Origin: a virus
IMG/VR virus record: IMGVR_UViG_3300008116_000261
Coordinates: 1-49,223 of that record
Length of the DNA stretch: 49,223 nt
Strand: one strand, 5' to 3'
Below, one piece after another: positions 3,169 through 29,905 of the stretch; positions within the stretch are counted from its first letter, which is position 1; each line of letters starts with the position of its first letter. The translations under genes and the position numbers were made by a program. Below the pieces are notes generated by a model, which was given only the letters and a program-made list of their open reading frames with translations, did not search any database and was not told where the DNA came from.

Positions 3169-3405
3169 TTAGGATATGTACCCTAATGTTAATAATGCTT
3201 CTTCTATATCTACTTCTACATCGTTAAATGGATTTTCGTTAGAAGCTATTTGATTGGCTTCCTTATACTCTTCTATTATATCTAGTGCAATCTTTAAGTG
3301 TCTCTTTACTTCAAGTGCTACTGTATCTTGAGTTATTTGTTCATTCAAAGATGCTTTCTTTAAATGTTTAGCTTGCCAGTTGTGTATGTCGAAATTATTT
3401 TCCAC
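3169..3405 (-). CDS. Small acidic protein of the head block, leader-like N-terminus
   Basis: This 78-residue ORF starts with GTG (no nearby ATG) 7 nt after the preceding stop and ends at the terminator. The N-terminus MENNFDIHNW resembles the MENxF(D/N)LKKFL leader of its neighbour at 3413-3763 in degenerate form. The rest is predicted helical and acidic. It lies between protease gp21 and scaffold gp22, where T4-like phages carry small prohead core components. No family was recognised; a core or internal protein role is inferred from position only. Confidence 0.6.
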   Translation of the reverse strand: MENNFDIHNWQAKHLKKASLNEQITQDTVALEVKRHLKIALDIIEEYKEANQIASNENPFNDVEVDIEEALLTLGYIS

Positions 3406-3412
3406 TATGCTG

Positions 3413-3763
3413 TTATATGTTATTTATTTGATCTAACGTAAATCCTAACTCTTGTGCTAAGGTCTCTAGTTCTGGGTTCTCTTCTCCTGAATATTCACTG
3501 TCAATTGTTATTAGATTTGCAATCTCTTTTACTTTTTGTAAATACTCCTCTCCTTTCATTGCAGCAATTTTACTAGCAATTTCTGGTTGCTCTAATTCCG
3601 CTGCTTCGATTTGACTTTCAGATCCTTGATCAATTGTGTAATCGTTAGATACGTAATCTTGCACTAATCTTAGTAGGTCGTCTCCCTGTTCTTCATTTAG
3701 TAATCTTGAATTAGTAGTTAATTTATTTTCTACTAAAAATTTTTTTAAATTAAAATTTTCCAT
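3413..3763 (-). CDS. Leader-bearing small head protein
   Basis: This 116-residue acidic protein begins with the leader FNLKKFLVENKLTTNSRLL (residues 4-22), shared with proteins at 24487, 24283 and 10232. The leader contains LVE at 11-13, a match to the (L/I)xE consensus cut by T4 gp21 protease. The remainder is helical and low in hydrophobics. The ATG overlaps the stop of the protease gene as TAATG, suggesting coupled translation. It may be an internal or core protein that is processed during head maturation; no named family was recognised. Confidence 0.7.
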   Translation of the reverse strand: MENFNLKKFLVENKLTTNSRLLNEEQGDDLLRLVQDYVSNDYTIDQGSESQIEAAELEQPEIASKIAAMKGEEYLQKVKEIANLITIDSEYSGEENPELETLAQELGFTLDQINNI

Positions 3764-4344
3764 TATGCTCTTAGTATATTGTTAATAATACAATCTAATC
3801 TATCGTATTTTCCTACTACTTGTTTTCCTTCATTCAATGAAATTGGATTCATGAATGCTCCTTGTGTAGATGGATTAGAAACGAAATCCCAGCATACTAA
3901 TTCGAAGTCTGGTTGAACCATTAAAGTTCCTTCGTTTGTTTGAGTTACTGATCCTGTTCCTCTTGAAGAGATTCCTATTGTATGTCCTCCTCTTAATATC
4001 TCTTTTACGATATTTCCTGAAGGTGTGTTTAGTAATTCTACTTTACCCATTAAATCATCTCCTTGCCACCATAGTTCTTTTACGACATGTGATGCATTTT
4101 TTAAAGATACAATTGCTGATTCTGGATGATCTAATTCTCCGTAAGCATTTCCAACTTTAACAAAATTCTCTATATAGTTTTGAACTTCTTGTTCAAGAAT
4201 TTCTCTTTTATAGATTCTTCCGTTTTGGTTTTTAGCTCCTGCTCTCTGCATAATACCTGTTACTTCAAAAACACCTGGTTTGGTTTTTGATTCAGTAAGA
4301 AGTCCTTTGAAAGGAGTTACGTTTATTAATAGTGGATTGTTCAT
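3763..4344 (-). CDS. 21: Prohead maturation protease, gp21-like serine protease
   Basis: The 193-residue protein carries the signature of the T4 gp21 / herpesvirus-type assemblin fold: NGRIYKREIL at 41-50, GELDHPESAIVSLKN at 69-83 with His73, GHTIGISSRGTGS at 120-132 with the nucleophile Ser at 126/127, and VSNPSTQGAF at 155-164. In T4 this enzyme sits in the prohead core and cleaves gp23, gp22 and internal proteins after (L/I)xE. It overlaps the flanking genes by single bases (TAATG). The length is close to T4 gp21. Its likely substrates here are discussed in the findings. Confidence 0.95.
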   Translation of the reverse strand: MNNPLLINVTPFKGLLTESKTKPGVFEVTGIMQRAGAKNQNGRIYKREILEQEVQNYIENFVKVGNAYGELDHPESAIVSLKNASHVVKELWWQGDDLMGKVELLNTPSGNIVKEILRGGHTIGISSRGTGSVTQTNEGTLMVQPDFELVCWDFVSNPSTQGAFMNPISLNEGKQVVGKYDRLDCIINNILRA

Positions 4345-5585
4345 TATATTAGATCTGTTAATGATACTGTTTCATCTATTCCTTCTCTATCAGCTTCAAA
4401 TCTATCTTGATTTGCTAAACTCTGTAAAGCTCCTGCTTTTGCTCTATCAATTAGAGATAATAAATGCTTGAATTTAACATCTTTAGAAGTAGATGCTTGA
4501 GTTTGTGCTTGCTTGTGTAATTTTTCAAATTTAGAAGGTTCAGTTTCGTACATAGCCATTAATTTACGAACCATGTTTTTATCTGCTTCTGTATCTGTTT
4601 CTTCGAACAAATCGTCAAAACTTTCTTCATCACTAGCTTCTTCATATCCTCTTGGATGTGGAATATCATCTTCTTCCTCTCCGTCAATCATCGGATCTGA
4701 GAAGTTTTCATCATCGTAGTCGATTTCATCTTCGCTTATTGAATTTGACATTCTCTCATAATCAGTAGTATCCCATTCATCATGTGATTGATCTCTGTTT
4801 GCGTAATCTCTAAAGATTGCTAGAAGACCTTTGTTATATCCATAAATCTGATTATCGTCTAAGAAGTCTGCTAACTTATCTGCTACTGTTTCTTCAGCAG
4901 GGTCTGTTAAGATGTCAAAAAGTCTATCTGTGTATCCGTAGATTTGATTATCCTCTAAATAATTTTCTAATTCTCTTTTATATTCTGCGTCTGTTTTAGG
5001 TCCGTACATTTCATACATGTCAGCCTCTTTGTAGTTTTCTACATCGGATAATTCTTCTGATAGTACTTTTTTGATAAGTTTTTTAAAGCCTTCTTTTAAC
5101 TCTGCTTTTTTCATACCATTAAAAGTATCTACAGTATTTTTTGCTGTAACATCTACCATTTTATCATGTAGATCTACCTTTGGATTAACTCCTGCTAATT
5201 GATTTGTATAGAAGATTGAATCTTTTGCTAAGTTTTTAGATACTTTTGCTAATGCTTTTGCGTATTCTTCTGCTGTTGGTGTTCCACCGACTTCCATTGC
5301 CTCCAACTCAACTCTTAAACCTCTAAGGATTTGCTCATATGGATACTTATCCATTTCGTTAGTTGGTTTATATCTGTAATCTGTTAGGTTATTTTTAGTA
5401 AGTCTAGCTTCTTCTACTCTAGCTTCTTGAATCATTCCTCTGTTCTTTAAAATTTGAACAGCATCATCGTATCCGTTAAAACGAGTTACTAGGCTTGGAA
5501 GTTCTTTTCTAGCATCAGCTAAAAAATTCTCTTTAGAAAATTTTCCTTCTTGAATCCCGTTATATTTTTCTTGTAAAGTTCTCAT
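4344..5585 (-). CDS. Acidic head-block protein of unknown function
   Basis: The 413-residue protein is acidic and mostly helical and lies between portal and protease genes. The N-terminal part (about 1-175) contains a conserved-looking helical segment with ILRGLRVELEAMEVGG. The middle (about 190-265) contains two similar segments, ELENYLEDNQIYGYTDRLFD and KLADFLDDNQIYGYNKGLLA, which is an internal repeat of roughly 40 residues. The C-terminal 60 residues are helical. Position suggests a prohead core or packaged protein, analogous in place to T4 genes 67/68, but no sequence similarity to those could be shown. Confidence 0.7.
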   Translation of the reverse strand: MRTLQEKYNGIQEGKFSKENFLADARKELPSLVTRFNGYDDAVQILKNRGMIQEARVEEARLTKNNLTDYRYKPTNEMDKYPYEQILRGLRVELEAMEVGGTPTAEEYAKALAKVSKNLAKDSIFYTNQLAGVNPKVDLHDKMVDVTAKNTVDTFNGMKKAELKEGFKKLIKKVLSEELSDVENYKEADMYEMYGPKTDAEYKRELENYLEDNQIYGYTDRLFDILTDPAEETVADKLADFLDDNQIYGYNKGLLAIFRDYANRDQSHDEWDTTDYERMSNSISEDEIDYDDENFSDPMIDGEEEDDIPHPRGYEEASDEESFDDLFEETDTEADKNMVRKLMAMYETEPSKFEKLHKQAQTQASTSKDVKFKHLLSLIDRAKAGALQSLANQDRFEADREGIDETVSLTDLI

Positions 5586-6688: not shown

Positions 6689-8545
6689 CTAGTTATCTAA
6701 ATCCTTAATATTCTCTTCATTTAAAAGATCTGACTCTTTTTCTACCTCCTGTTCAAAGATATTTTGCTTTTTAGTAGGGAATATATTTTTGTTTCTAAGA
6801 AAAACAGACATCGTATTGTTTATACTCTCTCTTACATTCTCATTATCACTTGGAAAACCACCTTTCATTCCTTGTACTCCTAACCTGTCTCTTCCTCCTA
6901 CTGGATCTGCATTTGTTCCTATTATAGACATCTTCTCTCTAGGTCTTCCTATAGGAGCATTTTCATCATACCCAGCTGGTAAGTTTCCTTGTTCTCTACC
7001 GTAAATTGAAGCTAAGTCATGAGGTGTTCCAAAAGACATTCCTGTTGATACTGGATCGTTTCCTTCGTTTTCAATTTGAGATAACCTAAAGTTTCTTTTA
7101 CCGTCTTCTCTAATAAGGTCTCTCATTTCGTTATAATTATCTTCTGAGATATCAAATACCATGTCGTAGATGTAATCTGAGGAGAATAGTTTAGTTGCTT
7201 GCATTTGAGTTGCTAGGTCAATTTTCTCTTTCCAAAGAGCTACTTTTTCTTGTTCATAGATAATAGAAGGAGTAGTTAACTTAATCTCAAAGTTTACTAA
7301 AGACTCTTTATCGAATCCCTGAGAGTATAAATGTACTAGTCCAATTTTAGTTAACTCGCTTTCTACAATTCTTTGAATTCTTTCTACTGTTCTAGCAAAA
7401 CGGATATCTTCTGCTGCTAAAGTTGCTTTACCTGTTAAATCTTTTTCAAATCCAAAATATGCTTTAGGTACTTTTAGTGCAGCAAATAGCTTATCTCTTA
7501 AGTATTCAATATCATTTGTACCATCGTACTCTAATCCTTTTGTAGTTTCAATTTTTGTAGAAGTATCTCCTCCACGAACTGGAAGATAAAAGTCTTCCAT
7601 CATGTTCTGCATGTTGAATTTTAAGTTATACTGACCTGTCTGTGGATCAACATATGGAGTTTTTTTAATACTATTGATAGTTTTTTGCATGAACTGCTCA
7701 ACTTCGTTTGGTGGAATAGATCCTACATTAATGTAGAACATTCTTTTTTCAGGAGCTCTCATGATTCTGTGAATCAACATTGCATCCTCCATTAAAGTTA
7801 ATTGTTTGTATATTTTACGGCCTGGTTCAATATACGATCTACCGTACGGAAGGTAGTTTGTATCTGATATTAATCTAAAATGTGCTACTTCGTAATTGTC
7901 TAAGGAGATAGTTGTTTTACTATTATTTGGAATATAGTTTGGATCTGCTGAAGAAGCTAATCCGTCTGGATCGATTGAGAATGTTACTTTAGTTGGATCT
8001 TCTTTATCCATTCCTTCATGTCTTACCATATGGTAAACTGTGTAAGGAAGTACATTATAAACACCAAATTTTTCTGATATTTCTAATTTTAAAAAGAAGT
8101 CTCCGTACTTGCACATATTTCTAACCCATGACCATAGGTTAAATTCAATGTTTAGTACATCGTAATATAAATTGTAAAGAACTCTTTGTATGTTTTCGTC
8201 TGATGATTTAACTGAAAGAATTTCTCCCATTGGGTTCTTTAATGTGGATTCATCTGCTAAAATATCTAAAGTTGATGCTATAATAGCATCAGTATCCATT
8301 GCTTCGTAATCTGAGTAAAGTTGTATCCTTAACGTCTGGTAGTTAAGGTTTGGATTGAATATGTTCTTATTGTTATATATGTATAGACGAGAAAACCTAT
8401 CCAATAGTGAATTGGTTTGATACTTCCCTGTTGATTGTATGTGGTTAACATCAGCAATCTTTAATTCATCTCCTCCTACGTTTCTAACTAATATATCAGT
8501 TGAGAACAGCCTCTGGAGTGAGGTAAATAAATTTCTTTCTGCCAT
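6689..8545 (-). CDS. 20: Portal protein, gp20-like
   Basis: The 618-residue protein lies between terminase and prohead protease, as expected for a T4-like portal. Recognisable gp20 features include DTDAIIASTLDILADES near 82-98, MCKYGDFFLKLEI in the first quarter, RMFYINVGSIPPNEVEQFM near 267-286 and KVPKAYFGFE...GKATLAAEDIRFARTVERIQ near 357-390. The last matches the T4 'RIPSSRIP..LSKEEIRFSKFI' clip/stem region in position and character. Portals form the dodecameric vertex through which DNA is packaged and to which the neck binds. The C-terminal 130 residues are polar and of low conservation. A 30-nt gap with an AT-rich box separates it from terminase. Confidence 0.93.
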   Translation of the reverse strand: MAERNLFTSLQRLFSTDILVRNVGGDELKIADVNHIQSTGKYQTNSLLDRFSRLYIYNNKNIFNPNLNYQTLRIQLYSDYEAMDTDAIIASTLDILADESTLKNPMGEILSVKSSDENIQRVLYNLYYDVLNIEFNLWSWVRNMCKYGDFFLKLEISEKFGVYNVLPYTVYHMVRHEGMDKEDPTKVTFSIDPDGLASSADPNYIPNNSKTTISLDNYEVAHFRLISDTNYLPYGRSYIEPGRKIYKQLTLMEDAMLIHRIMRAPEKRMFYINVGSIPPNEVEQFMQKTINSIKKTPYVDPQTGQYNLKFNMQNMMEDFYLPVRGGDTSTKIETTKGLEYDGTNDIEYLRDKLFAALKVPKAYFGFEKDLTGKATLAAEDIRFARTVERIQRIVESELTKIGLVHLYSQGFDKESLVNFEIKLTTPSIIYEQEKVALWKEKIDLATQMQATKLFSSDYIYDMVFDISEDNYNEMRDLIREDGKRNFRLSQIENEGNDPVSTGMSFGTPHDLASIYGREQGNLPAGYDENAPIGRPREKMSIIGTNADPVGGRDRLGVQGMKGGFPSDNENVRESINNTMSVFLRNKNIFPTKKQNIFEQEVEKESDLLNEENIKDLDN

Positions 8546-8575: not shown

Positions 8576-10150
8576 TTATCCTAATAGCCAGGTAAGGTCT
8601 TCCTGTCCACCAGGTGTTTCCATAAGATACGGATTATTCTGCATTGGAGCAACGTTATATACGCCTGGGGTTCTTTGGTTAAGGCTTACAAAAGAAGACA
8701 TTGTAGCTCTGGAAAGGTCCATTCCCTGTTGCCTCATTCTAATAGCTGTATCTCTAACATACAAAGCAGTTGCAAAAGCCATAATTAAATCATCATTATA
8801 ACCTGACTGTGCCTGTGCTTTACCGTTCTTCCATATGAATACTCTCATTTCAGCTAATAACCTCTTAGACTGCACTATAACCGATCTTTCCCGTATGTAT
8901 TCAGTCATCTTAGCGATAACTAGGGGTCTTGTTTTAAGAGACATTGTAAATCCTGGTACTAGTTTATCTCTTTCGTATTTTGCCATATACGATTCAACTG
9001 TTTCATTATCTGATCTAGATGAATAATAAAGGTTTTTATATTCTCTTTCTATTACTTGTTCAATTGTTGCCCATCCAATATTGGCATTCTCTATTACAAG
9101 TAATGCATCACAGTATTCTGTTGCTATTCCTACTAGTACGTTTCCGTATTCTTTAGGAGATATCTTTCCTTTATATTCTGCAACTTGTGTACAGCTCTCT
9201 ATATCAAAGACATGGAAGCCAGAGTAGTCGGTAGAGTCTCCTCTAGCGACGTCGGCAACAACCATATATGATTTCTGATAGTCAGGTGATTCCCATATCC
9301 AAAGATTTCCATCTACACCTCTCTTCTCCATTGGTTCTTTCACATATGTCTCTTCGTAAAAAGCCATATTCTCAACCTCAATTACTGAATCTCCAGATGA
9401 TAGGAAGTCACAATCACACTCTTGTGCTGCTTGCTTCTCTCCTAACTGTCTTGTTTGTTCATCTCTCCAGTCTTGCTTTCTTTCCGGATGTACATCCCAT
9501 TTTAATTTAACAGGTACAAATCCATTCTCTCCTGCTTCAGCTTTTTCCCATGTTTTATGGAACCAGTTTCCTACACCATTTGGAGTTGACAATGCCATAC
9601 ACTGACCTCCGGTTGCTAAGGTTTGCTGAGCTGCTGTAAATGTTTCTTCAATATTATCAATGAAAGCTGCCTCATCTATTAATAGTAACGATACCGCTTC
9701 TGAACGAGCTGCATCTGCATTAGAGGATTTAGCTGTTATTTTAGAACCGTTTTTAAGTCTAAGAGATAGTTTATTCTTTTCTGTGAAAGGTAATTGTAAC
9801 CACTTTGGTAGATTCTCATACATGAAAATCGTTTTGGTTACAAGGTTTCTAGCTGTTGCTTGAGTAATTGCAAGTGCTAATACGTTTTTATCTTTATGAA
9901 AGATCATTAACCATAAAGCGTATGCTGAGGCTAATGTAGAGATTCCTAGTTGTCTTGATTTAAGAGTTACTATAAACTTCTCGTCTCTAAATAAGTGAAG
10001 AACTCCTTCCTGAAATGGATAGAGGTTAAATAAGATTCTACCTCTGGTTGGATGTTGAATATAGCAATACTTCTTCATGAAGTAAGCCGGGTCTTTTGCA
10101 CATTTTATGTACTCTTGTGCAACTATTTGTTTTATATCTTGTTGTGACAT
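8576..10150 (-). CDS. 17: Terminase large subunit, gp17-like packaging ATPase/nuclease
   Basis: The 524-residue protein has both terminase domains. ATPase: P-loop KSRQLGIST at 64-72, Walker B LLLIDE at 155-160 with the catalytic Glu, and coupling motif LSTPNG at 187-192. Nuclease (RNase H fold): VADVARGDSTDYS at 298-310 with the first Asp, LVIENANIG at 351-359, and a later Asp in YNDDLIMAF. The classic Walker A lysine (RQLGKT in T4) is replaced by Ile; a lysine at the front of the loop may substitute, as in lambda-type deviant P-loops. It cuts and pumps concatemeric DNA through the portal. It begins just after a terminator, so it probably has its own promoter. Confidence 0.97.
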   Translation of the reverse strand: MSQQDIKQIVAQEYIKCAKDPAYFMKKYCYIQHPTRGRILFNLYPFQEGVLHLFRDEKFIVTLKSRQLGISTLASAYALWLMIFHKDKNVLALAITQATARNLVTKTIFMYENLPKWLQLPFTEKNKLSLRLKNGSKITAKSSNADAARSEAVSLLLIDEAAFIDNIEETFTAAQQTLATGGQCMALSTPNGVGNWFHKTWEKAEAGENGFVPVKLKWDVHPERKQDWRDEQTRQLGEKQAAQECDCDFLSSGDSVIEVENMAFYEETYVKEPMEKRGVDGNLWIWESPDYQKSYMVVADVARGDSTDYSGFHVFDIESCTQVAEYKGKISPKEYGNVLVGIATEYCDALLVIENANIGWATIEQVIEREYKNLYYSSRSDNETVESYMAKYERDKLVPGFTMSLKTRPLVIAKMTEYIRERSVIVQSKRLLAEMRVFIWKNGKAQAQSGYNDDLIMAFATALYVRDTAIRMRQQGMDLSRATMSSFVSLNQRTPGVYNVAPMQNNPYLMETPGGQEDLTWLLG

Positions 10151-10231: not shown

Positions 10232-11524
10232 TTATTTTCTATTTTCTGCTAAGAATTTTCTTAAGTCAAATCCTTCTTGTAAAGCTTGTGTTGCTTTTTC
10301 TTTAGCTGGGGTTTCTTTCTTTTCTTTACCTGCGAATTTTTTATCAAATTCTTTTCTTAATTTCTCTTCTGCTTTTCTTAATGCTGCAATATCTTTACGC
10401 ATTTGTTTAACAGCTTTTTGATCAATATGCTCAGCATGCTCTCCTTCTTCTAAAGATCCTACTTTAGCCTCTAGTGCTTCGTAAACTCTTTTCATCTCAT
10501 CCATTTTGTATTTATGAGCTGCTTCGTTTGTTCCGTGTTCAATCTCTTTCATTAATTCTTCAATTGAATTGTATTTTGGAAGAGGTTTTTCTTGTACCAT
10601 TTCTTCTTCTGCTACTGCCTGTGGTGCTATACCTAAAGCATCTTGTACCATTTCTACTAAACGTTTTTCTTTAGCAGTTAGTTTTGTTTCTTTCATCATT
10701 GGTTTTTTCTTATTTTCATAAAGCGATTGAGCAGCCATATCTGATAGCTCTCCTGATTGGTATAACTCGTCTGTTAACTGTTCTAATTCTTCCTCACTCA
10801 AAGGTGTTCCATCTTCAAATTCTGCAGATACAACATATACATCTACAAAGTCAGGGTAATCGTCTGGGTCGATTCCATCGATTTCGATAGAGCTGTAATC
10901 TACTCCTTCTAATCCTGGTTGAGATTGTGCTTGTGGTTTTGCAGTTGGTACTTGGTAAGGTTGTACTGATTTTATCGACTGTACAAAGTCTGGATTGTTT
11001 ACAAAGATATCTGTAAAAACTTCTTCTGCTTGTTCTGGAGTTTCTGCGTTAAGTATTCTAGAGTCTCCTCCACCGTACTTATTTACGAAGGTTACTTCAA
11101 AAGCTTTTTGATTTTCATCAAATCCTTCTACCCTTGCTTCGTTCATTTTGTTTTTCATTGAACGAGATGCTTCAAGTAAGCCTTCTTCTTCTAGTTGTGA
11201 ATTAATATCGTTTGCTATAAACTCAGCTATCTTTCCAGTAACATCGGAATCCTGTTCTACGTAGTCAGCATCTACTGGTTCTCCTGATACGTCTATACCA
11301 ATAACCTCTACTCCTTGTGGTCCCTCTAAAGCATAAAAGCAAGTATCCATTATACTTGAATCTTCTAAGCTGTAGATTTTTACTCCATCTACAGTAGTCA
11401 TGTAAAATCCACCTGTTCCTTCTTCATCGAAATATTTGTAGTCATCTCCTTCTTTAAGAAGTTGTGAATTTTTTGTAAGTTTATTCTCTGATAAGAATGC
11501 TCTTAAATTAAAATTATCTGCCAT
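10232..11524 (-). CDS. Leader-bearing, probably virion-associated protein
   Basis: The 430-residue acidic protein begins with NFNLRAFLSENKLTKNSQLL (4-23), the same leader as at 3413 and 24487, with LSE as a possible gp21-type cleavage site. It ends with a second copy-like element, GFDLRKFLAENRK, at its extreme C-terminus. The middle includes a segment FEVTFVNKYGGGDSRILNAE near 142-161 of probable alpha/beta character. The last third (about 285-415) is Lys/Glu coiled-coil-like. No named family was recognised. The leader and the position next to the packaging genes suggest incorporation into the prohead (inference). Confidence 0.7.
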   Translation of the reverse strand: MADNFNLRAFLSENKLTKNSQLLKEGDDYKYFDEEGTGGFYMTTVDGVKIYSLEDSSIMDTCFYALEGPQGVEVIGIDVSGEPVDADYVEQDSDVTGKIAEFIANDINSQLEEEGLLEASRSMKNKMNEARVEGFDENQKAFEVTFVNKYGGGDSRILNAETPEQAEEVFTDIFVNNPDFVQSIKSVQPYQVPTAKPQAQSQPGLEGVDYSSIEIDGIDPDDYPDFVDVYVVSAEFEDGTPLSEEELEQLTDELYQSGELSDMAAQSLYENKKKPMMKETKLTAKEKRLVEMVQDALGIAPQAVAEEEMVQEKPLPKYNSIEELMKEIEHGTNEAAHKYKMDEMKRVYEALEAKVGSLEEGEHAEHIDQKAVKQMRKDIAALRKAEEKLRKEFDKKFAGKEKKETPAKEKATQALQEGFDLRKFLAENRK

Positions 11525-14864: not shown

Positions 14865-15293
14865 TTACTGACAGTGGTAATTTAAGTATCTCTGTAATGC
14901 TTTTGCATAATGAGTGCCTTTATCTTCTAATTTACTTCTTTCTGCTCTTACTTTTGAACATGTAAGTTTACCTAACCTTTTTTTTAAAATACCTGGCTCT
15001 ACTGGGTCATGCTTCCCTTCCTCTATATTAGATAATTTATCATAGTACTTAGGATCTTCATATACATGGTCAAAAGCTATTTCCATAGCAACATCTAAAT
15101 CTGTTGTGTGTTCAGACTCTATTTTTACTCCTTTTGTTATCTGCTTTATAATTTGACCTAAAGGAAGATCGTGCATTGTAGCTAAGTCTCCAATAGTGGC
15201 GTGTTGAGCTAGTCCTCCTGGTATTTTGTCAGGAGCAGTTGTTGAAGCATCTAAAGCTTCTTTAACTATTTGTCTTAGTTGACTTTTTTTCAT
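14865..15293 (-). CDS. Small protein with DUF5661-like region
   Basis: The 142-residue protein begins MKKSQLRQIVKEALDAS, a charged helix like those of several other proteins here. Residues about 53-94 (GVKIESEHTTDLDVAMEIAFDH...DPKYYDKL) resemble the phage domain I know as DUF5661; the name is from memory. The C-terminal 35 residues (SKVRAERSKLEDKGTHYAKALQ) form a basic helical module. The start overlaps the upstream gene by 32 nt. Function unknown. Confidence 0.65.
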   Translation of the reverse strand: MKKSQLRQIVKEALDASTTAPDKIPGGLAQHATIGDLATMHDLPLGQIIKQITKGVKIESEHTTDLDVAMEIAFDHVYEDPKYYDKLSNIEEGKHDPVEPGILKKRLGKLTCSKVRAERSKLEDKGTHYAKALQRYLNYHCQ

Positions 15294-16858: not shown

Positions 16859-17437
16859 TTACTCCTCTATATGACTTCTTAAGTGTTTTAAATACTCTTG
16901 AAGATTATTGGTTAGTTGTTTTTTAAATTTAGAATCATTATTATTCCAATCTTCAATATCTCCTTGCTCTGTTACAAAGCTGTTACTTGTTTCTAATGTA
17001 TCCAATACCCACTGCTCAACATCTCTAGTAAAAGCTTTAAGACTTCCTTGCATCATATTCTTTTCATACGATTCATATAAACCTGCTTTTCTTAATTCTG
17101 CTTCATAATCAATCACACAATCAAAACACATTTTATGTATCTTATACATTTTATGGCTAAGATAATAGTTCATAGATCCTCCACATTTAGGGCATGCTAA
17201 GGGTATTTGTAAAGCTTTTTTTGCTGAGTCTAGTTTTGTAATGTTTTGTTTTAATCCATCTTTAATAGTCCAGGTTCTTCCGCTCTCTTCCCAGATATCT
17301 CCTTCTTTATAAGCAACCTGTGCTTTAGAATACCCTATACCGTCTACGGTCTTTGCGCTAAAGTCTTTATTAACTAAATTCCTAGCTCTATTTACGTCTT
17401 TTGATTTGAATTCTTTTTTAAGTAAGCTCTCGCCCAT
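16859..17437 (-). CDS. Zinc-ribbon-like phage protein
   Basis: The ATG at 17437 is chosen, giving 192 residues; an upstream TTG adds only two. Residues about 13-60 (NRARNLVNKDFSAKTVDGIGY...EGDIWEESGRTWTIKDG) resemble a widespread short phage domain. CPKCGG and CFDC, about 25 residues apart, form a four-Cys zinc site. The C-terminal half is helical and acidic. Function unknown; a nucleic-acid-binding role is possible. It overlaps the HAD gene by 20 nt. Confidence 0.7.
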   Translation of the reverse strand: MGESLLKKEFKSKDVNRARNLVNKDFSAKTVDGIGYSKAQVAYKEGDIWEESGRTWTIKDGLKQNITKLDSAKKALQIPLACPKCGGSMNYYLSHKMYKIHKMCFDCVIDYEAELRKAGLYESYEKNMMQGSLKAFTRDVEQWVLDTLETSNSFVTEQGDIEDWNNNDSKFKKQLTNNLQEYLKHLRSHIEE

Positions 17438-18005
17438 AACCAAGTTGTTTTAATTTATTAATAACTGATTGTATTTCTCCGTCTTTTACCTCTAATGCTA
17501 TTCCTCCTTTGGCGGCAAATGCTTCTAGATTGGAAGGCTTATCGTCTATTAATATAGCATTTTCATTTGCAAAATCCGACTTAGCATCTCCAAATCTAAA
17601 TAAGACTTCAGGAGCAGGTACTAGGTTTTCTTTTACCCATAATCTTTTACCAAGTCTTGAGCTATTGTCTTGGGATGGTGAAGTTAATAATTTTGGTCCA
17701 TATGGCTGTATAAAGTTCCACAACTCTCTACCATTTGGCATCCATTCCATCTCTGACCAGAATTCTAATCCGATATGCTGATCTATAAACTTCCAAAACT
17801 CTTCTGTTCCTTCTAGTTTATCGAAATGTTTAGGTCTTGTTACTTGAGCAATTGTTGCTTTTGAATAGTACTTTGGACCTTCTTGTTGTAATAATGTAAC
17901 AAATCTCTTTTCAAAGTCTGTTAATACTCCATCCATGTCACAGTATATCTGATACTTTGGCATGAAGTCTGATTCTTCTAGTAATAAGTCTGCTAGTTTT
18001 CCCAT
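17418..18005 (-). CDS. HAD-superfamily phosphatase, 5'-nucleotidase-like
   Basis: The 195-residue protein has the HAD motifs: motif I DMDGVLTDF at 23-31 (nucleophile D23, acid D25), motif II within KLLTSPS near 104-110, and motif IV in LIDDKPSNL near 151-159. The small cap and overall plan resemble deoxyribonucleotidase (NT5C)-type phage enzymes that dephosphorylate nucleoside monophosphates; the substrate is not shown. The first 14 residues before the fold (GKLADLLLEESD) resemble the charged leaders of neighbouring proteins and include LLEE. It is cytoplasmic, with no signal peptide. Confidence 0.85.
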   Translation of the reverse strand: MGKLADLLLEESDFMPKYQIYCDMDGVLTDFEKRFVTLLQQEGPKYYSKATIAQVTRPKHFDKLEGTEEFWKFIDQHIGLEFWSEMEWMPNGRELWNFIQPYGPKLLTSPSQDNSSRLGKRLWVKENLVPAPEVLFRFGDAKSDFANENAILIDDKPSNLEAFAAKGGIALEVKDGEIQSVINKLKQLGYGRELT

Positions 18006-18017
18006 AACCTTTTTATT

Positions 18018-20741
18018 TTATAATGATTGCTGTATTCCTATAGCTGGCATTCTTTCACGCCATAGTCTTAATATTTTTTGCTTTTGTCTTGGACCTAATT
18101 CTTGTGCATCTAAATATGTATTAACTACATCTGCGAAAGGTTTTCTTTCTTTTTTAGCTCTGAATAGTAGTCCTTGTAAATTTGCATCTATTTCTTTTGC
18201 TAGATGAAAGTATTGATTTCTTCTTGATTTTCTTTTGTTAATCCATCTTCTCTTTTCCAAATCATCTTCCATTCCTTTATTAGGATTAGATGTAGGACCT
18301 CCTATATTATGTGTAAGATGTTCGATTTCATGTCTTACAATATCTTTTAGAGTCATAGAAATTTCTTCCCAACCCTGCGGTAACATCTCTTCGTCGATAT
18401 CTATATCAATTCGAATAAAATCTCCTTTCTTATCCGTACCTGCTCCTGTTGTGTCGATAACTTCCATTTTTTCTGTTTCGAAAGTTAATTCTAGAGTTGC
18501 TTCTACATCAAATTTTCCACCTAATGCTTCGTATGTTTTCTTAAACTGTACTCCATCTTCCCCTGAATCTATTGCTTCTTTCCAAGCTCTAAATACATCT
18601 GAAGAGACCATATTTGATAACTTGTCGTATTTACCTTCTGCCATAACCTCTTTATTATTATTTTTTAAACCGTCTTCCCAGTTTCTAAATGTAATATTTC
18701 CTTTTAAATAAGCTTCTTTTTCTATTTCCTGTAAGTAATCGTCTTCATTTGTATTGGTAGTAGCTGCTAATCCTTCAAGTCTTCCTTCCATGTTTTGCAT
18801 ATGGTGAATCATTTCATGAGAGAATGATCTACAAACATCTTTAGGATGTCTTCCCATTACGAAAAGAACTACTTCTTGCTTGGTTGGATCATAGTAAGCT
18901 GTTTTACCAAAGAAGTCGCTAGCTTCATTTTTATCATATCTTATCTTTACTTCCGGTAGTGGTTGAATGTTCATACCTTGATCTAACATATATTCTATAA
19001 GTGATCCTATGTACGGAGTGTAATTAAACTTTTCCTGTTCTGCTGCTTCTGGTAAATGTTTTTGATACGGTGTTTGATCAAAGCTTACATCTGAGTATGT
19101 TTTAATATAGATGTTAATTCTATCTTGATTAAATACAACTGTGTACTTATCCGAGTCAACTGTCTGTTTTAAGTCATTAAAAAGGTGTAGTAGTTCTGCT
19201 CTATCTTTTGCTGGGATTGCTCCTCCTGGTTGAATAGGAGTTCCGGATGATCCTTCTTTTATTACTTTTTTCTCGGTATTCTTCGGAAAGAAGCTTTCAA
19301 AAACTCCATCTACTGCTGTTAGCATTTTATCTTCTACTGAATCTTCTTGCTGTGGTGCTATAAGATCTACGATTGTTTGTTTATCTTCTTTTGATACTAC
19401 TTTTGGAATCCATTTACCCTGTAGTAAGAACTTTTCTGACTTCCTAATATCTGTTGCTGAGAATTTATCATCTTCTTTATTTGTGATAACAGGTAATTCT
19501 TTTACTTCTACGTTCTTATATTCACCTTTTTGTTTTCTCTTTTCTATTCCAGAGAATTTACCCATTTCATCAGCCATAGCTCCTGTAATAATATTTGTTA
19601 CTTTGTCTTGATTTGCATCAATCCATTCATAAGTATCTAATATAGGAGTTACTTTACTAATTACAATCTCCATTGGCACGTTTATGTATTTAGCATAAAT
19701 TTCCCAAATAGCTTTTGATTGTTCTGCTGTAATTTTTACACCTTCTCTGATTTTAGGTCCGATGAATATTACAATTTTATCTGCTTTAGTAGAAAGGAAT
19801 TTAGCATTCTCAAAGTGAGCAAGGTGTGGTGGTTTAAATCCTCCAGCATAAAGTGCTACTACTTCTGATCCATCGTCTAAAGCTTCTGAAAGTGTTTGTG
19901 CTACTTTTTCAAGTGCATCTTCTTTTCCCTTTCCTTTTGCTGTTCCTACTTCTCCTGATTTAACAGATACCATTGATTTGAATATACCTGCTATTCTGTT
20001 TTTAGATCTAGCATTTGTAAGTTTCTTAGCAACATCATCTAATAGGTCTTCAAAAGAACCGTCTATATTAAATCCTTGAAATAATATCTTGATAGTACCC
20101 CAAGCTGTTGTTGACCATACTTCTTCTCTTGATATTTCTCTAAATCCGTCTAATTGTACTTTTCTTAAAGACAGTTTTACCGATGATAGGTTAAATTCAA
20201 ACTCTTCTCCTTTTTTTAATTTAGGTACATTTGAAATACCCATTCTTCTAAATACGTCTTGTGGGTCTTGCTCAAGTAAGATTACTTTTGCTAATCCTAT
20301 TAATAGTCCTTGCTTTTCAGCTGGTAAATCTAGGAAAGATCCTTTAAAGGCATGTTCTTCTTCTGTAAGAGCTATTATATTATCAACCTGAATGTATTGA
20401 TCTTCTTTTCCTACAATTGGATAAAGTACTGAGATTAATTCTCCTGAGTTATAGTATCTTCTTCCGGTATATTTTTCTGATTTGAAAGGTACAATTACGT
20501 TTTGCGGTAAAGCTAAAGCTGCATCGATAAGTCTTTGTTTAACTTCTCTCTTATCGTCTCCTTCAAACCATACAATGATGTCTAGGTCTCCAAAGTCTGT
20601 TTTTGTACCTGCTTTAACAGATCCTGATAGAGAAGCTTTCTTGAAGCCTGGTATTTTACTTAGAACTTCTTCTACGTATTTGTTGAATGTATTATGTACA
20701 TCCCCTCTTTCGATTCTATTTCCTCCTGCTACTCCTGACAT
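18018..20741 (-). CDS. 907-residue fusion: nucleotidyltransferase, NMNAT-like domain, two HEXXH domains
   Basis: Four modules are visible. Module 1 (about 1-260) is a pol-beta-type nucleotidyltransferase: G40-S41, DLD at 52-54 and a third acid near D120. Module 2 (about 292-455) is a cytidylyltransferase/NMNAT-like Rossmann domain: AGGFKPPHLAHF at 299-310, where HLAH replaces HxGH, and FSATDIR at 427-433. Module 3 (about 500-690) contains SHEMIHHMQN at 641-650 (HEXXH). Module 4 (about 700-907) contains VRHEIEHLTHN at 802-812 (HEXXH). Linkers carry (L/I/M)xE: LSE 284-286, IKE 494-496, MAE 700-702. Zinc-metallopeptidase and nucleotidyl-transfer chemistry are family expectations, not shown. The gene abuts the second NTase gene by 1 nt. 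Confidence 0.8.
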   Translation of the reverse strand: MSGVAGGNRIERGDVHNTFNKYVEEVLSKIPGFKKASLSGSVKAGTKTDFGDLDIIVWFEGDDKREVKQRLIDAALALPQNVIVPFKSEKYTGRRYYNSGELISVLYPIVGKEDQYIQVDNIIALTEEEHAFKGSFLDLPAEKQGLLIGLAKVILLEQDPQDVFRRMGISNVPKLKKGEEFEFNLSSVKLSLRKVQLDGFREISREEVWSTTAWGTIKILFQGFNIDGSFEDLLDDVAKKLTNARSKNRIAGIFKSMVSVKSGEVGTAKGKGKEDALEKVAQTLSEALDDGSEVVALYAGGFKPPHLAHFENAKFLSTKADKIVIFIGPKIREGVKITAEQSKAIWEIYAKYINVPMEIVISKVTPILDTYEWIDANQDKVTNIITGAMADEMGKFSGIEKRKQKGEYKNVEVKELPVITNKEDDKFSATDIRKSEKFLLQGKWIPKVVSKEDKQTIVDLIAPQQEDSVEDKMLTAVDGVFESFFPKNTEKKVIKEGSSGTPIQPGGAIPAKDRAELLHLFNDLKQTVDSDKYTVVFNQDRINIYIKTYSDVSFDQTPYQKHLPEAAEQEKFNYTPYIGSLIEYMLDQGMNIQPLPEVKIRYDKNEASDFFGKTAYYDPTKQEVVLFVMGRHPKDVCRSFSHEMIHHMQNMEGRLEGLAATTNTNEDDYLQEIEKEAYLKGNITFRNWEDGLKNNNKEVMAEGKYDKLSNMVSSDVFRAWKEAIDSGEDGVQFKKTYEALGGKFDVEATLELTFETEKMEVIDTTGAGTDKKGDFIRIDIDIDEEMLPQGWEEISMTLKDIVRHEIEHLTHNIGGPTSNPNKGMEDDLEKRRWINKRKSRRNQYFHLAKEIDANLQGLLFRAKKERKPFADVVNTYLDAQELGPRQKQKILRLWRERMPAIGIQQSL

Positions 20742-23507: not shown

Positions 23508-24317
23508 CTACTTATCCCCTTTAAAAGAGGTTTTGAAGCTTCCTGTACCTCCTGCTTGGATAGGTGAAAAGCCTTGTGGTAAATTTTTATTGACATTATC
23601 TACTGCTTCTTGAACGGTTAGGTAAAGGTCTTTTAGAAATTCATTATAACCTTCAATATTGTATTTCTTGATAGCAGAAATATATGCTGCCATATTATCT
23701 AAATCAGTATGCAATGGCTGAGTGCTTTTCCCTAGTATTATTAAACCTATACCCACTACTAGTTCAGCTATTGCTTCTAATAGGCCTATATTTCCTTGTG
23801 TAGTTAGTAGCTTGTATGTTTCGTTTTTAAAAGAATTTTGCTTACCTGAGTATACGTCTAGTATGTTTTGTAACCCTACCTGTACTGTGTTGTAGCTTTC
23901 CTCATCAAGTCCTTGCTGAACTAGTTCATCTGTTCTTCGAAGAATAGCTTCCATAAACTGTCCTGTCATTGTAGGAAATTCTGTCCAACTCTTATAGTAT
24001 ACCTCTACTTTATTTGTATCATACGGTTCTTTTAGTAAGTGATGATTTACAGCTGGGTCTTTTGCATGTATAAGTTCGTGGGTGATTGATCTTTTTAAGT
24101 CCTCCATTGGAGTACGTCCTGTTAATCCCTGCCATATATTCATAAAGATATTGTCAAATGCAGGTATGTAGAACTTAGAGTTTATGTTAATTATATTATC
24201 TTCTAAGTTGGTTCCTTCTGTATCGTTTCGTTGAAAGTGAGCTGTTGAGTTGTTATCTACGTATGATAATGTAAAGGATACTTTACCTGGTGATCCGTCT
24301 AGCTTGTCCTGATTCAA
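23508..24317 (-). pseudogene. HEXXH metallopeptidase-like ORF, separated from its start by a frameshift
   Basis: The 269-codon frame contains SITHELIHAKD at about 77-87 (H80, E81, H84) and a later TEFPTM whose Glu could be the third zinc ligand. It also contains a hydrophobic helix LLEAIAELVVGIGLIILG. It has no ATG: the frame opens with TTG at 24317, and an in-frame TAG sits at 24327-24329. The leader-bearing ORF at 24283-24462 runs into it in the other frame. A +1 shift near 24317-24290 would join them into one protein of about 317 residues. It is either a frameshifted gene, a sequence error or a programmed shift. It ends at a terminator. Confidence 0.6.
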
Positions 24318-24462
24318 GGAAAGTACCTAGTATGTTTGCTACCTTATTAACTATAGCAGTATCGTTAGGTGTCAGGGCTAACCTTTTTTCAGCAATTATC
24401 TTAGCATTACTAGTTAGTCTATTCTCTACTAAAAATTTTTTTAAATCAAATGTATTTTCCAT
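24283..24462 (-). CDS. Leader-bearing 59-residue ORF, probable 5' part of the HEXXH gene
   Basis: An ATG at 24462 opens NTFDLKKFLVENRLTSNAKI, the shared leader. The frame ends 35 nt inside the next one at a TAA (24283-24285). The first 42 nt differ at only two positions from the start of the gene at 24487-25122, indicating recent duplication or exchange. After the leader it encodes TPNDTAIVNKVANILGTFL. It is most simply read as the N-terminus of the downstream HEXXH protein. Confidence 0.6.
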   Translation of the reverse strand: MENTFDLKKFLVENRLTSNAKIIAEKRLALTPNDTAIVNKVANILGTFLESGQARRITR

Positions 24463-24486
24463 GTTACTACCTACTTTAACCCTGTA

Positions 24487-25122
24487 CTATACTGGTTTTA
24501 ATTGCCCTTTTACTTTTGCTGCTATCTGCACTATTTCTACAGCTTTTACCCCTCCTAGAGCACCTTCAATACCCTTTAGTAATGTTGATCCTGGACCTAG
24601 TACGGTTCCTACGGCATTTCCTATTGCCATAGCTAGTATAGCTGCGTATATATACTTAGCTAGTACTAGTAATTTTTGCTCGTCTATTTTACCGTCTCCG
24701 GTTATCCAAAGTTTTTTAAGAAAGTTAGTTTTTTTAACTACCCATATAATAGTCTTTATATACAAATGTTCCCACTTATGTGTAAAATGCACTATTTTCT
24801 TAACAAAGGCAGGATCTTCAGGATTATCTTTACTTCTAAATAGTTTTGAAATTGTTCCTATTGCTTTTGCTATCCACTCTATTATTTTTGGAGCAGCTAA
24901 AAGTCCACTTCCTATTAATGCAACAACACTTTCGTTAAGTTCTTTTGGCTGTTCTTCTTCTGTGATTTCATCTAATGAATCTCCACCACTACTTAGTGCT
25001 GATAGTCCTGCTTTCATAGCAGCATCTAGTTCTGAATCTTCAGTATCAACTTCTAGTAACCTAGAGTTATTAGTTAATTTATTCTCTACTAAGAATTTTT
25101 TTAAATCAAATGTGTTTTCCAT
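24487..25122 (-). CDS. Leader-bearing protein with hydrophobic segments
   Basis: The 211-residue protein begins NTFDLKKFLVENKLTNNSRL, with LVE as a possible maturation site. Then comes an acidic stretch (about 25-64) and hydrophobic helices near 66-90 (VVALIGSGLLAAPKIIEWIA), 120-135 and 155-180 (YIYAAILAMAIGNAVGTVLG), joined by basic segments. A prohead leader on a membrane-type protein suggests a packaged protein that could act on the host membrane during entry, which is inference. It overlaps the kinase-like gene by 1 nt. Confidence 0.65.
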   Translation of the reverse strand: MENTFDLKKFLVENKLTNNSRLLEVDTEDSELDAAMKAGLSALSSGGDSLDEITEEEQPKELNESVVALIGSGLLAAPKIIEWIAKAIGTISKLFRSKDNPEDPAFVKKIVHFTHKWEHLYIKTIIWVVKKTNFLKKLWITGDGKIDEQKLLVLAKYIYAAILAMAIGNAVGTVLGPGSTLLKGIEGALGGVKAVEIVQIAAKVKGQLKPV

Positions 25123-25565
25123 TATACGTCTATTACTTTTATATTACCATAATACCTATCTTGCATTATGTTATCCATCTTAATTAAACCTCCCGGCCCT
25201 TCTAAGTCTGGATATATTCCTAACATTTCTGCTTCTTCTATTATATCATCAATTGGAACATCTTTTTCAGACCCTGTGAAAGGTTCTAGATTATCCATTG
25301 TGATAATTCCTAGTTTTGGATTTCTAACCTCTACGTCATATATGTATACGAAGTATTTAGTCTTTTGTCCTTTTATTTGTTGTGCATCTTCTAATTCTTC
25401 TGAATCAGTAGTTACTTTTTTTACTCTATCTCCTACTAAAAATACTGCTCCGTAATCTCCTTCTCCTAAATACTCTCCTCCTTGATCAACGATATCGTTA
25501 ACAAGTTCTTGGTATTCTTGAGAGGGTGTAATTACCTCCTTTAGTATGTTATAAAGGCTAATCAC
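25122..25565 (-). CDS. Compact protein-kinase-like protein, catalytic Asp not visible
   Basis: The 147-residue ORF starts with GTG (MISLYNILKEV...). YLGEGDYGAVF at 32-42 looks like a glycine-rich loop, VKK at 48-50 supplies the candidate lysine, and GIITMDNLEPF resembles a hinge. KMDNIMQDRYYGNIKVIDV at 129-147 resembles the catalytic-loop Asn plus the DFG-type metal site, and the protein ends there. The usual catalytic-loop Asp (HxDxxxxN) is not evident, so it may be a pseudokinase or a degenerate fold. It lies in a run of small accessory genes. Confidence 0.55.
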   Translation of the reverse strand: MISLYNILKEVITPSQEYQELVNDIVDQGGEYLGEGDYGAVFLVGDRVKKVTTDSEELEDAQQIKGQKTKYFVYIYDVEVRNPKLGIITMDNLEPFTGSEKDVPIDDIIEEAEMLGIYPDLEGPGGLIKMDNIMQDRYYGNIKVIDV

Positions 25566-25571
25566 TTATTC

Positions 25572-25988
25572 TTAAGTTATATCCATTTCGTAAGAACCAG
25601 CTTGTATTCCTTTTGCTTTCAAAGCATCTACAATCTTGTATACTTCTGGATCGGTATAGTCAGCTCTTTGTGGAAGTTCTAATCCTGTAAGACTGTTTAT
25701 AATTTGACTTGCTTCTTCGTGGTTAGATATTTTCTTACCATCTACATTTATTGAGTAGAATCTTTGGTTCGGGAAAGTGTAACTTATATCAAGTCTCTGT
25801 ATATTAGAAGCTTCTTCTTGCATAGCCTTCTTCTCAGAATCATCTTCTTTAGGAACACTTTTAGCAATTGTTGTTAAGATGTTTCTAAAGTCATCTGTAG
25901 TACCTCCTTTAGTTTCTCCTCCTGGAGCATACTTTGAATATCCTTTTAATTCTTCTTGGATGATTCTTTTTAATTCTGATTTCTTCAT
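25572..25988 (-). CDS. Unknown protein with charged N-terminal helix
   Basis: The 138-residue protein begins MKKSELKRIIQEELKGYS, nearly the same helix as at 15293, with IQE as a possible gp21-type site. The rest looks like a small alpha/beta domain (RFYSINVDGKKISNHEEASQ). Function unknown. Confidence 0.6.
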   Translation of the reverse strand: MKKSELKRIIQEELKGYSKYAPGGETKGGTTDDFRNILTTIAKSVPKEDDSEKKAMQEEASNIQRLDISYTFPNQRFYSINVDGKKISNHEEASQIINSLTGLELPQRADYTDPEVYKIVDALKAKGIQAGSYEMDIT

Positions 25989-27460: not shown

Positions 27461-28396
27461 TTAGAATAATGCATTCCAAATTGTTCCGTCATAGTAATAA
27501 GGCTTACTTGATCCTGGTGCTCCTTGTGCTACTATCATACCTTCTACTGCCGGTGATGGAAAAGATCCTGTTGGTGTTAGTTGCAGTATATTATTGATCA
27601 TCAATGAACCTGTAATCTGTACTTGAGAACCTGATGCAAATATTAAATTTCTTCTTGAAGCATTTGAAGTTCCGTTTCCTACTATAAAAGCAGATTGAGC
27701 TGATGATGAGATATTAAACTGCCCTATTACTGACTGAAATGATCCTGATGCTACTGTTTGATTACCTGCTGCATGTGAATATGATCCAGATGTAATAGTG
27801 TAATACCCTTCAGCATGTGAATAGTCTCCTATTGCTTTTGCATAGAAACCTTCAGCATGAGACCCTACTCCTCTGGTAAAACTATTTTGTCCTTCTGCGT
27901 GAGAATTAGCTGCATAAGTTATTGTAATGTATCCTTCTGCATGTGAAGCATCCCCTATTGCATATGTTTGATTTCCTTCAGCATGTGAACCTGCTCCTTG
28001 AGAATATGTACCACTACCTTCTGCATGTGAACTTTCTCCTTCTGCATGTGTTGAAGCTCCTTCAGCATGTGAATATAGTCCTGGTGAGTACACTTGATTT
28101 CCTTCTGCATGAGAATAGTTTCCTTGTGCATAAGTACTGTACCCTTCAGCATGTGAACTATTTCCGTATGATATTGAATTTTCTCCTTCTGCATGTGAGT
28201 AAGATCCAGATGAGATTGTATTATACCCTTCAGCATGTGAATAGTCTGCAGATGCTGTAGTAAAGTATCCTTCTGTATGTGCTCCAACTCCGTATGCTAA
28301 TGTTCTCTCTCCTTCAGCATGTGAGAATGTACCGTATGCTTCTGTCGCTCTACCTTCACTATGAGCAGAATTTCCTGATGCTAGTGTTCCAAATCC
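27461..28396 (-). pseudogene. Downstream part of SHAEG-repeat tail fibre, cut off by an in-frame TAA
   Basis: This region continues in the same frame as the gene at 28397-29905, after TAA 28397-28399. The frame has no other stop and no ATG near its beginning. It encodes about 16 further 14-residue SHAEG units, then a cap (FQSVIGQFNISSSAQSAFI), a GSQVQITGSL stretch and a C-terminal SKPYYYDGTIWNALF. The cap duplicates that of the upstream half. Either it is silent, or it is read by stop readthrough, or the stop is a point mutation or error of GAA to TAA in the repeat motif. Confidence 0.75.
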
Positions 28397-28430
28397 TTAA
28401 GCATGAGAATATAATCCTGTTACTGTATTT
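27770..28430 (-). repeat. Degenerate ~42-48-bp tandem coding repeats, block B
   Basis: The plus strand repeats CCTTCTGCATGTGA-like cores about every 42-48 bp, encoding SHAEG units after the TAA. Coding repeats, not CRISPR: no conserved spacers and continuous reading frame. Confidence 0.8.
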
Positions 28431-29905
28431 TGTCTTCCTTCTCCATGTCCTCCGGTCGGCCCTGCAGGTACTATATTTTCAAACCCTTGTGTTAAAGATC
28501 CTGTTATCTGCACATCCCCATTTATAATACCACTCCATGTTGTTGCATAAGAAGCTGTAGTAGCATTTGTTGCTGTTGCAAGTGTAAAAGAAGCTGTACC
28601 AAGTAAAGAACCTGTAAATCCTTGAGTAGCAATAACTGAACCTGTTACTTGGAATGTACTTCCTGATGCAAATACTAAATTACTTCTAGATCCATTTGCT
28701 GTTCCATTTCCTATTATGAAGGCTGATTGAGCTGATGAAGAAATATTAAACCTTCCTATTACTGATTGATATAGTCCTGATGCTACTGTAGAGTATCCTG
28801 CTGCATGTGAAAAATTTCCTGATGCTACTGTGGCAAATCCTTCAGCATGTGAAGCTAATCCAGATGCTACTGCATCGTTTCCTTCAGCGTGAGAATATAT
28901 TCCAGATGCTACTGTATTGTTTCCTTCAGCGTGAGACCAGTCTCCTGATGCTGTTGTGTAGTATCCTTCTGCGTGTGAGAAAGTACCTAATGATACTGTT
29001 TGATCTCCTTCTGCATGTGAATAGACTCCAATAGCTTGAGTACCTTGGCCTTCAGCATGTGTATAATCTCCTATGGCTTGAGTAATATTTCCTTCAGCAT
29101 GTGAGTAGCTCCCTATTGCTTGAGTGTTATCTCCTTCAGCATGAGAATAAGATCCAGAGGATATTGTAGAATGCCCTTCAGCATGTGAGTAATTTCCTGT
29201 TGCTGTATTAAAATATCCTTCTGCATGAGATGCTAGTCCTAATGCTGTCGTACCATTTCCTTCAGCATGAGAATAAGACCCTGATGCTGTAGTACTGGTA
29301 CCTTCAGCATGTGAGCTTTGACCTGATGCAGTTGTACTATCTCCTTCAGAGTGAGCAAAATTAGCAGATGCTACTGTACTAGTACCTTCGGCATGTGATC
29401 CTGTTGCTTGTGCACCTGTATTATCTCCTTCAGCATGTGAGTATAAGCCTGATGCTATAGTATAATTTCCTTCAGCGTGAGCATAAACACCAGTAGTTGT
29501 AGTTTGTGTATTTTTACCTTCTGCATGTGAACCTGTTGCAAGTGCTGAAACAGAATACCCTTCGGCGTGTGAGAAACCTCCTTGTGCTAATGTATTATAC
29601 CCCTCAGCATGTGAGTATATTCCTGATGTATAACTACCGGTACCTTGTGCTAATGATCCAGTTATTTCAACATTACTATTTCTTGAAATTCCACCACTAC
29701 CTAGATTTGTCCAGTTTGAAGTTGAAGTAATTGAAATAGACATTGATGCAGGTTCCGGCACCCCTGTTATACCTGTACTTCCTGTTGTAAAGAAAGTAAT
29801 AGTACTTCCTGATAAAGAAGCAGAGTAGAAGTACGATGATAGGTTAGTATCTAACTGTTCGTATGAAAGTGCTGATCCTGTTACCGATCTTAATGTAATT
29901 GCCAT
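28397..29905 (-). CDS. Tail fibre with YadA-head-like SHAEG repeats (first half)
   Basis: The 502-residue product starts MAITLRSVTGSALSYEQLDT, a common fibre N-terminus that likely docks to the baseplate or an adaptor. About 20 units of roughly 14 residues with consensus (Y)SHAEG follow from residue 98. They match the left-handed trimeric beta-roll of YadA/Hep-Hag adhesin heads. A cap, YQSVIGRFNISSSAQSAFII, then a GFTGSLLGTASF linker follow. It ends with YSHA and a TAA where every other unit has GAA. A trimeric receptor-binding fibre is the likely role. Confidence 0.8.
   Translation of the reverse strand: MAITLRSVTGSALSYEQLDTNLSSYFYSASLSGSTITFFTTGSTGITGVPEPASMSISITSTSNWTNLGSGGISRNSNVEITGSLAQGTGSYTSGIYSHAEGYNTLAQGGFSHAEGYSVSALATGSHAEGKNTQTTTTGVYAHAEGNYTIASGLYSHAEGDNTGAQATGSHAEGTSTVASANFAHSEGDSTTASGQSSHAEGTSTTASGSYSHAEGNGTTALGLASHAEGYFNTATGNYSHAEGHSTISSGSYSHAEGDNTQAIGSYSHAEGNITQAIGDYTHAEGQGTQAIGVYSHAEGDQTVSLGTFSHAEGYYTTASGDWSHAEGNNTVASGIYSHAEGNDAVASGLASHAEGFATVASGNFSHAAGYSTVASGLYQSVIGRFNISSSAQSAFIIGNGTANGSRSNLVFASGSTFQVTGSVIATQGFTGSLLGTASFTLATATNATTASYATTWSGIINGDVQITGSLTQGFENIVPAGPTGGHGEGRQNTVTGLYSHA
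28795..29618 (-). repeat. Degenerate ~42-48-bp tandem coding repeats, block A
   Basis: The same CCTTCAGCATGTGA-type core as block B, about 20 units encoding the first SHAEG array. The similarity between blocks A and B offers a substrate for recombination that would change fibre length. Confidence 0.8.

Follow-up and report, generated by a model that had tools for sequence, protein, structure and literature searches.

A shared leader on unrelated proteins of a T4-like phage as a probable capsid-targeting propeptide with exchangeable classes

Several ORFs in a stretch of phage DNA open with variants of one short leader, and the proteins behind it are unrelated, which raises the question of what the leader does. 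The stretch is an IMG/VR record of 49,223 bases, classed as linear, and the whole of it was analysed (the window). The first-pass annotation had proposed a capsid-targeting signal that contains the cleavage motif of the T4 prohead protease gp21. Comparison with relatives supports this proposal through the presence of such a protease, the LxE boundary of the leader, the exchange of leader classes, the sharing of cargo with core proteins and the genes adjoining the protease. The leader is very probably a capsid-targeting propeptide that would be cut by a gp21-type protease and that exists in exchangeable classes.

The genes of the window lie mostly on the minus strand, and their order matches that of Flavobacterium phage vB_FspM_immuto_2-6A (immuto), a T4-like myovirus of 160 kb. 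As its genes indicate, the window is a piece of a T4-like myovirus near immuto. The protease ORF matches phrog_207 (E 3e-52) and Peptidase_S77 (E 5e-35). All four N-terminal leaders claimed earlier are present at their ORFs on the minus strand, as is the C-terminal copy GFDLRKFLAENRK on the 10232-11524 protein, directly preceded by ALQE (Table 1). The leader core, searched as a degenerate DNA pattern, occurs exactly five times in the window (four N-terminal sites and one C-terminal) and not once in 100 dinucleotide-preserving shuffles of it. Segments 24421-24462 and 25081-25122 differ at two of 42 bases, as had been counted. The presumed degenerate form on ORF 3169-3405 is also there; it is a second leader class (D) that is seen in protease-related phages. 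ORF 24283-24462 does carry the leader, but it is probably not a separate ORF, being rather the N-terminal piece of a longer, frame-broken gene.

Elsewhere in the window, two neighbouring SHAEG-repeat proteins (27461-29905) lie beside predicted tail genes and are possibly a tail-fibre or adhesin array. A 907-residue protein (18018-20741) gives weak matches of nucleotidyltransferase and cytidylyltransferase-like type, has HExxH-like motifs and resembles a multi-domain cargo or a polyprotein, and the ORF at 46484-47137 has a lipoprotein-like signal (LLLLSLFVFSC).

Table 1 Leader copies and head genes of the window. CTS, capsid-targeting sequence; a slash marks a putative cut.
Feature	Position	Strand	Remark
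Gp22-position scaffold protein	1575-3005	-	by synteny with immuto
Class D leader of ORF 3169-3405, VENNFDIHNWQAKHLKKASLNE	3340-3405	-	
Leader protein directly 3' of prohead protease	3413-3763	-	
Class A leader of ORF 3413-3763, MENFNLKKFLVENKLTTNSRLLNE	3692-3763	-	
Prohead core protease, gp21 type (Peptidase_S77)	3763-4344	-	presumed processing enzyme
Gp68-position core protein	4344-5585	-	relatives ~280 to 853 aa
Portal protein (gp20)	6689-8545	-	
Terminase	8576-10150		head block
C-terminal tag LQE/G-FDLRKFLAENRK, then stop, on 10232-11524 protein	10232-10282	-	conserved in orthologues
N-terminal class A leader of ORF 10232-11524, MADNFNLRAFLSENKLTKNSQLLKE	11450-11524	-	
ORF with class B start MKKSQLRQIVKE	14865-15293	-	
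5'-deoxynucleotidase-like ORF	17418-18005	-	CTS-like start MGKLADLLLE
Probable single leader-tagged gene, HExxH (HELIH) motif	23508-24462	-	ORFs 24283-24462 and 23508-24317
Class A leader of ORF 24283-24462, MENTFDLKKFLVENRLTSNAKIIAE	24388-24462	-	
Leader protein with hydrophobic body	24487-25122	-	
Second LxE/S site, residues 62-64, LNE/S	24931-24939	-	putative cut after E
Class A leader of ORF 24487-25122, MENTFDLKKFLVENKLTNNSRLLE	25051-25122	-	last residues LLE
ORF with T4-CTS-like start	25122-25565	-	VISLYNILKE
ORF with class B start MKKSELKRIIQE	25572-25988	-	

Aligned on its first F, the class A leader reads F[DN]L[KR]xFLxENxLTxN[SA]xLLxE. The search pattern itself fixed residues 1-13, in full or in part, and the independent test of conservation is therefore confined to residues 14-21, among which N15, S16, L19 and E21 are conserved. 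The information content amounts to 2.7 bits at residue 21 and to at most 0.8 beyond it. In 125 of 136 leaders, an [LIVM]xE has its glutamate at residue 20 or 21 (about 6-14% of body stretches of the same width), and within residues 18-23 an [LI]xE ends in 116 and an [LIVM]xE in 129 of the 136; about 5% of the leaders are without a clear LxE at the boundary. Conservation stops there, and the module ends in a second LxE (residues 20-21); the main cut is therefore probably made at this (L/I/V/M)xE, residue 21, and not only at FLxE. The comparative evidence supports the earlier view of a cleavable leader well, with its putative cleavage point moved; FLxE may be an additional cut site. Some cargoes contain several LxE motifs, and the exact mature N-terminus of those cargoes is therefore uncertain.

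Besides class A, the leaders comprise class B (MKKSxLxxIIxE), class C (MKLxxIILE), class D (FDIHxWQAKFLKE) and class E (RMQxLAGIITE...LxE). In a test targeted at the bodies of leader proteins, at least 12 body families were seen behind leaders of more than one class; for the majority of swapped pairs, homology begins within a few residues of the LxE glutamate on both sides. Such pairs include NSKILKE/EITKDSPSF and FLKKVLKE/EITKDSPSF (87% identical), NSRLITE/NTQHTELKPL in L220 and LAGIITE/NTRYNELKPL in L266, SREVNE/EMDFESS in L173 and KFLKE/EMDFESS in L193, and EILKE/SDENQLG in L112 and MKLAHIILE/SDETQLG in L141; the boundary is less exact in L123/L288 and in L027/immuto gp095. The targeting of the test means that the swap pairs are not an unbiased sample. 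An unbiased all-against-all search for N-terminal replacements gave no signal over controls; antisense ORFs were frequent among its pairs, and its alignments extended into the leaders. Elsewhere, the body family of the 24487-25122 protein stands behind leaders of classes A, B, C and E, and immuto gp092, at the same locus and with the same leader, has an unrelated body, the tblastn match being restricted to residues 1-26. Only two columns of this family are invariant, one of them E64 of the LNE site. The structure model of the protein is poor (mean pLDDT 52.6).

A search of IMG/VR with the degenerate leader DNA pattern returned more than 119 stretches, and the matches in 84,980 bacterial and archaeal species genomes fell on one contig. 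This search in relatives, run as the first-pass annotation had suggested, bears out that the bodies behind the leader are unrelated: on all loci retrieved, and among the matches listed, 162 distinct class A proteins form 69 body families, 48 of which have a single member. Immuto has four leader genes (gp003, gp076, gp077 and gp092), and up to four leader genes occur in a row (L058, L100). In a cultured neighbour, Microcystis phage Mel-JY01, the gp21 of which is 49% identical, leader A was not seen in the head region examined. When 73 cargo representatives were scanned against Pfam and PHROGs, nearly all of the matches were weak and single, and the T4 internal-protein family (IPI-III, Alt) was not among them.

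The leader is also found away from the N-terminus. Among 28 such copies, 12 are C-terminal tags and the other 16 run on, mostly into a second cargo. An [LIVM]xE lies within the 13 residues before the leader in 27 of the 28, against a background of 40% in these glutamate-rich proteins, and a candidate cut site therefore separates the core from the cargo whichever end the tag is on; in fused genes, an LxE separates the cargo from the leader. Orthologues of the 10232-11524 protein often finish in LQE/G-FDLRKFLAENRK, and in view of this conservation the interpretation of the C-terminal tag as a decayed fusion or stray copy was dropped. Of the leader, the tag retains just the first half; this half, by implication, would direct targeting, and the second half would carry the cut site. 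A precedent is T4 Alt, which has a propeptide at each end (PMC9026906).

ORFs 24283-24462 and 23508-24317 are probably one gene, the frame of which was broken naturally or by sequencing. The latter ORF is metallopeptidase-like, with a HELIH motif, and TTG is its only start. The assignment is based on intact relatives of it in L356 and L357 (41% identity), which stand under another leader, MRKFIKETLRANLLSE/A, and on a weak match of the post-leader piece of 24283-24462 to the post-leader region of these relatives (4 of 500 shuffles were equally good). The intact HELIH relatives in L356 and L357 adjoin a weak homologue of the 24487-25122 protein.

The leader is linked to the prohead protease and to the prohead core. 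A gp21-type protease occurs once in each of the 14 leader-A records of at least 38 kb and in all four class E or related records of at least 89 kb; some class E records of 35-84 kb, which may be fragments, gave no protease match. At 47 of 53 protease loci, the gene that follows the protease opens with leader A or D (44 by script and three D forms counted by eye), a set retrieved mostly with the protease as sole query and completed with some earlier loci that contain it. Several of the remaining loci have an inserted GIY-YIG-like gene; GIY-YIG-like ORFs (MVGIYKITSPTGKIYVGQS) immediately follow the protease at L203:9139, L211:4126 and L212:3485, in the usual place of the leader gene. Homologues of 12 class A cargoes are present as inserts in gp22-like scaffolds or gp68-position core proteins, the latter of very variable length. 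In the window, part of the scaffold is homologous to the cargo domain of a leader protein, and some relatives of the gp68-position protein hold cargo domains that are also present on leader proteins. One cargo follows VLTE/AL in a free gene and PINE/AL in a core protein, that is, the same E/A junction. The cut site of T4 gp23 aligns with a conserved glutamate in an (I/L)(V/I)xE of these phages. N-termini with the T4-like spacing phi-x-x-phi-phi-x-E characterize 11 of 37 immuto genes at 100.8-129 kb, a region picked after the data were seen, versus 9 of 195 elsewhere (Fisher p 2e-5; p 6e-4 when class A is left out).

A similar segment (MFPFLN... and MFPFLT...) is present twice in the window scaffold, and in immuto gp067, which occupies the same place, a different segment is repeated. 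The C-terminus of the scaffold, RWQKLAGIIK, resembles the class E leader RMQKLAGIITE; this leader may mimic scaffold self-contacts.

From modular leaders with an LxE boundary, their exchange, the double-ended tags, the protease linkage and the cargo shared with core proteins, we infer binding to the core, cleavage, packaging and delivery. The leader core F[DN]L[KR]xFLxEN would bind the assembling prohead core, by which the attached protein would be built into the prohead. On completion of the shell, the gp21-type protease would cut after (L/I/V/M)xE, between the targeting core and the cargo, on either side, and the cargo would remain in the mature head and probably be delivered along with the DNA. 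Leader classes (A to E and the short T4-like ones) would be swapped between cargoes at LxE. A wider proposal, which we consider evenly balanced, is a general protein-packaging code, in which several exchangeable classes of N-terminal, C-terminal and internal leaders would send dozens of mostly unknown effectors to the head, and cargo would move freely between leader genes and scaffold or core inserts and be freed by the protease.

Copying at the DNA level bears on this interpretation. The cassette had been thought to duplicate or move, and codon usage agrees: the share of synonymous codons in common is 0.78 within one genome or locus versus 0.63 between them. In L021, two leader copies in front of unrelated bodies share an identical stretch of 48 bases. 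Codon choice is more biased in the first ten leader residues, and at the invariant leader codons, than in the bodies; part of the leader conservation may thus come from DNA-level copying. The codon sharing within loci, the identical L021 copies and the bias in the first ten residues support duplication or conversion of the leader as DNA, besides selection on the peptide. The same observations would also suit a shared segment that is mainly a DNA element, such as a recombination site, a mobile cassette or a signal for translation or regulation, with no role in protein targeting. We consider this very unlikely, as leader classes that have no DNA in common take each other's place on one and the same body, at the same protein motif, and as the core is conserved as an in-frame C-terminal tag and also occurs inside fused genes.

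Sorting to another destination (host membrane, tail, injection apparatus or infection compartment), with the LxE coincidental or the site of another protease, would suit the amphipathic look of the leaders and the membrane-associated look of some cargoes. It is nevertheless very unlikely, given that LxE is the gp21 motif, that the protease is present in every long leader-A record tested, that leader genes adjoin it and that core proteins of the prohead contain some of the cargo domains as well. The leader might instead be a docking tag that binds the scaffold or another assembly factor and stays uncleaved in the virion; FLxE and LxE are short enough to occur by chance, and cleavage is predicted from sequence. 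The end of the module at LxE, the exchange at the same point and the shift of the cut motif to the cargo side when the tag is C-terminal make such a tag extremely improbable.

T4 IPII and IPIII start with MKTYQEFIAE/A, and in IPIII residues 4 and 7 direct targeting and residues 8 and 10 processing (PMC9026906). Leader A, with L3xxF6L7xE9, matches the spacing of T4 Y4xxF7I8xE10, a similarity that is too short for statistics. As with the T4 CTS (IPI, IPII, IPIII and the Alt propeptides), a short N-terminal leader, here a putative propeptide, is carried by unrelated proteins and ends in L/I-x-E, the motif cut by gp21, the hydrophobic spacing before the putative cut looks similar, and variable genes stand behind a conserved tag. 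The sequence-level features of a CTS found here are the shared leader on unrelated proteins, its L/I-x-E end, and a gp21-type protease together with a core scaffold. In contrast to the T4 CTS, the leader is longer (21 residues), has a second LxE, comprises several exchangeable classes, serves far more cargo families and has C-terminal and internal copies; the bodies are without detectable homology to the T4 internal proteins in PHROGs or Pfam. In the giant phages phiKZ and SPN3US, inner-head propeptides are removed by a distant gp21 relative, and SPN3US gp53 and gp54 have identical N-termini and diverged bodies (PMC5694885); the cut there is at S/A-x-E or A-x-E, however, and the propeptides are usually longer and are not a multi-class shared cassette. 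The N-terminal 30 residues of P1 DarB send a reporter to the capsid; the signal is reported for DarB and the Dar N-termini are discussed, and no shared, exchangeable LxE-ended module is described (PMC9024508). Our search of the open-access literature found no description of this leader system, no experiment on these phages and no virion proteomics of immuto or a relative. The best reading is that the principle is the known one of the T4 CTS, and that the apparent novelty is a larger kit, multi-class and double-ended, with exchange at the putative cut site and copying within the genome.

Of the three internal proteins of T4, the tags of which are shared or similar, IPI defeats a restriction enzyme. 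Should T4 logic hold, the leader would be a search key for packaged cargo in a large group of aquatic phages of presumed Bacteroidetes hosts, the genes of which are almost all unannotated, and the cargoes would be good candidates for counter-defence or host takeover. The natural leader swaps at the putative cut site would then offer tags and cut sites, ready for use, with which to study entry into the head.
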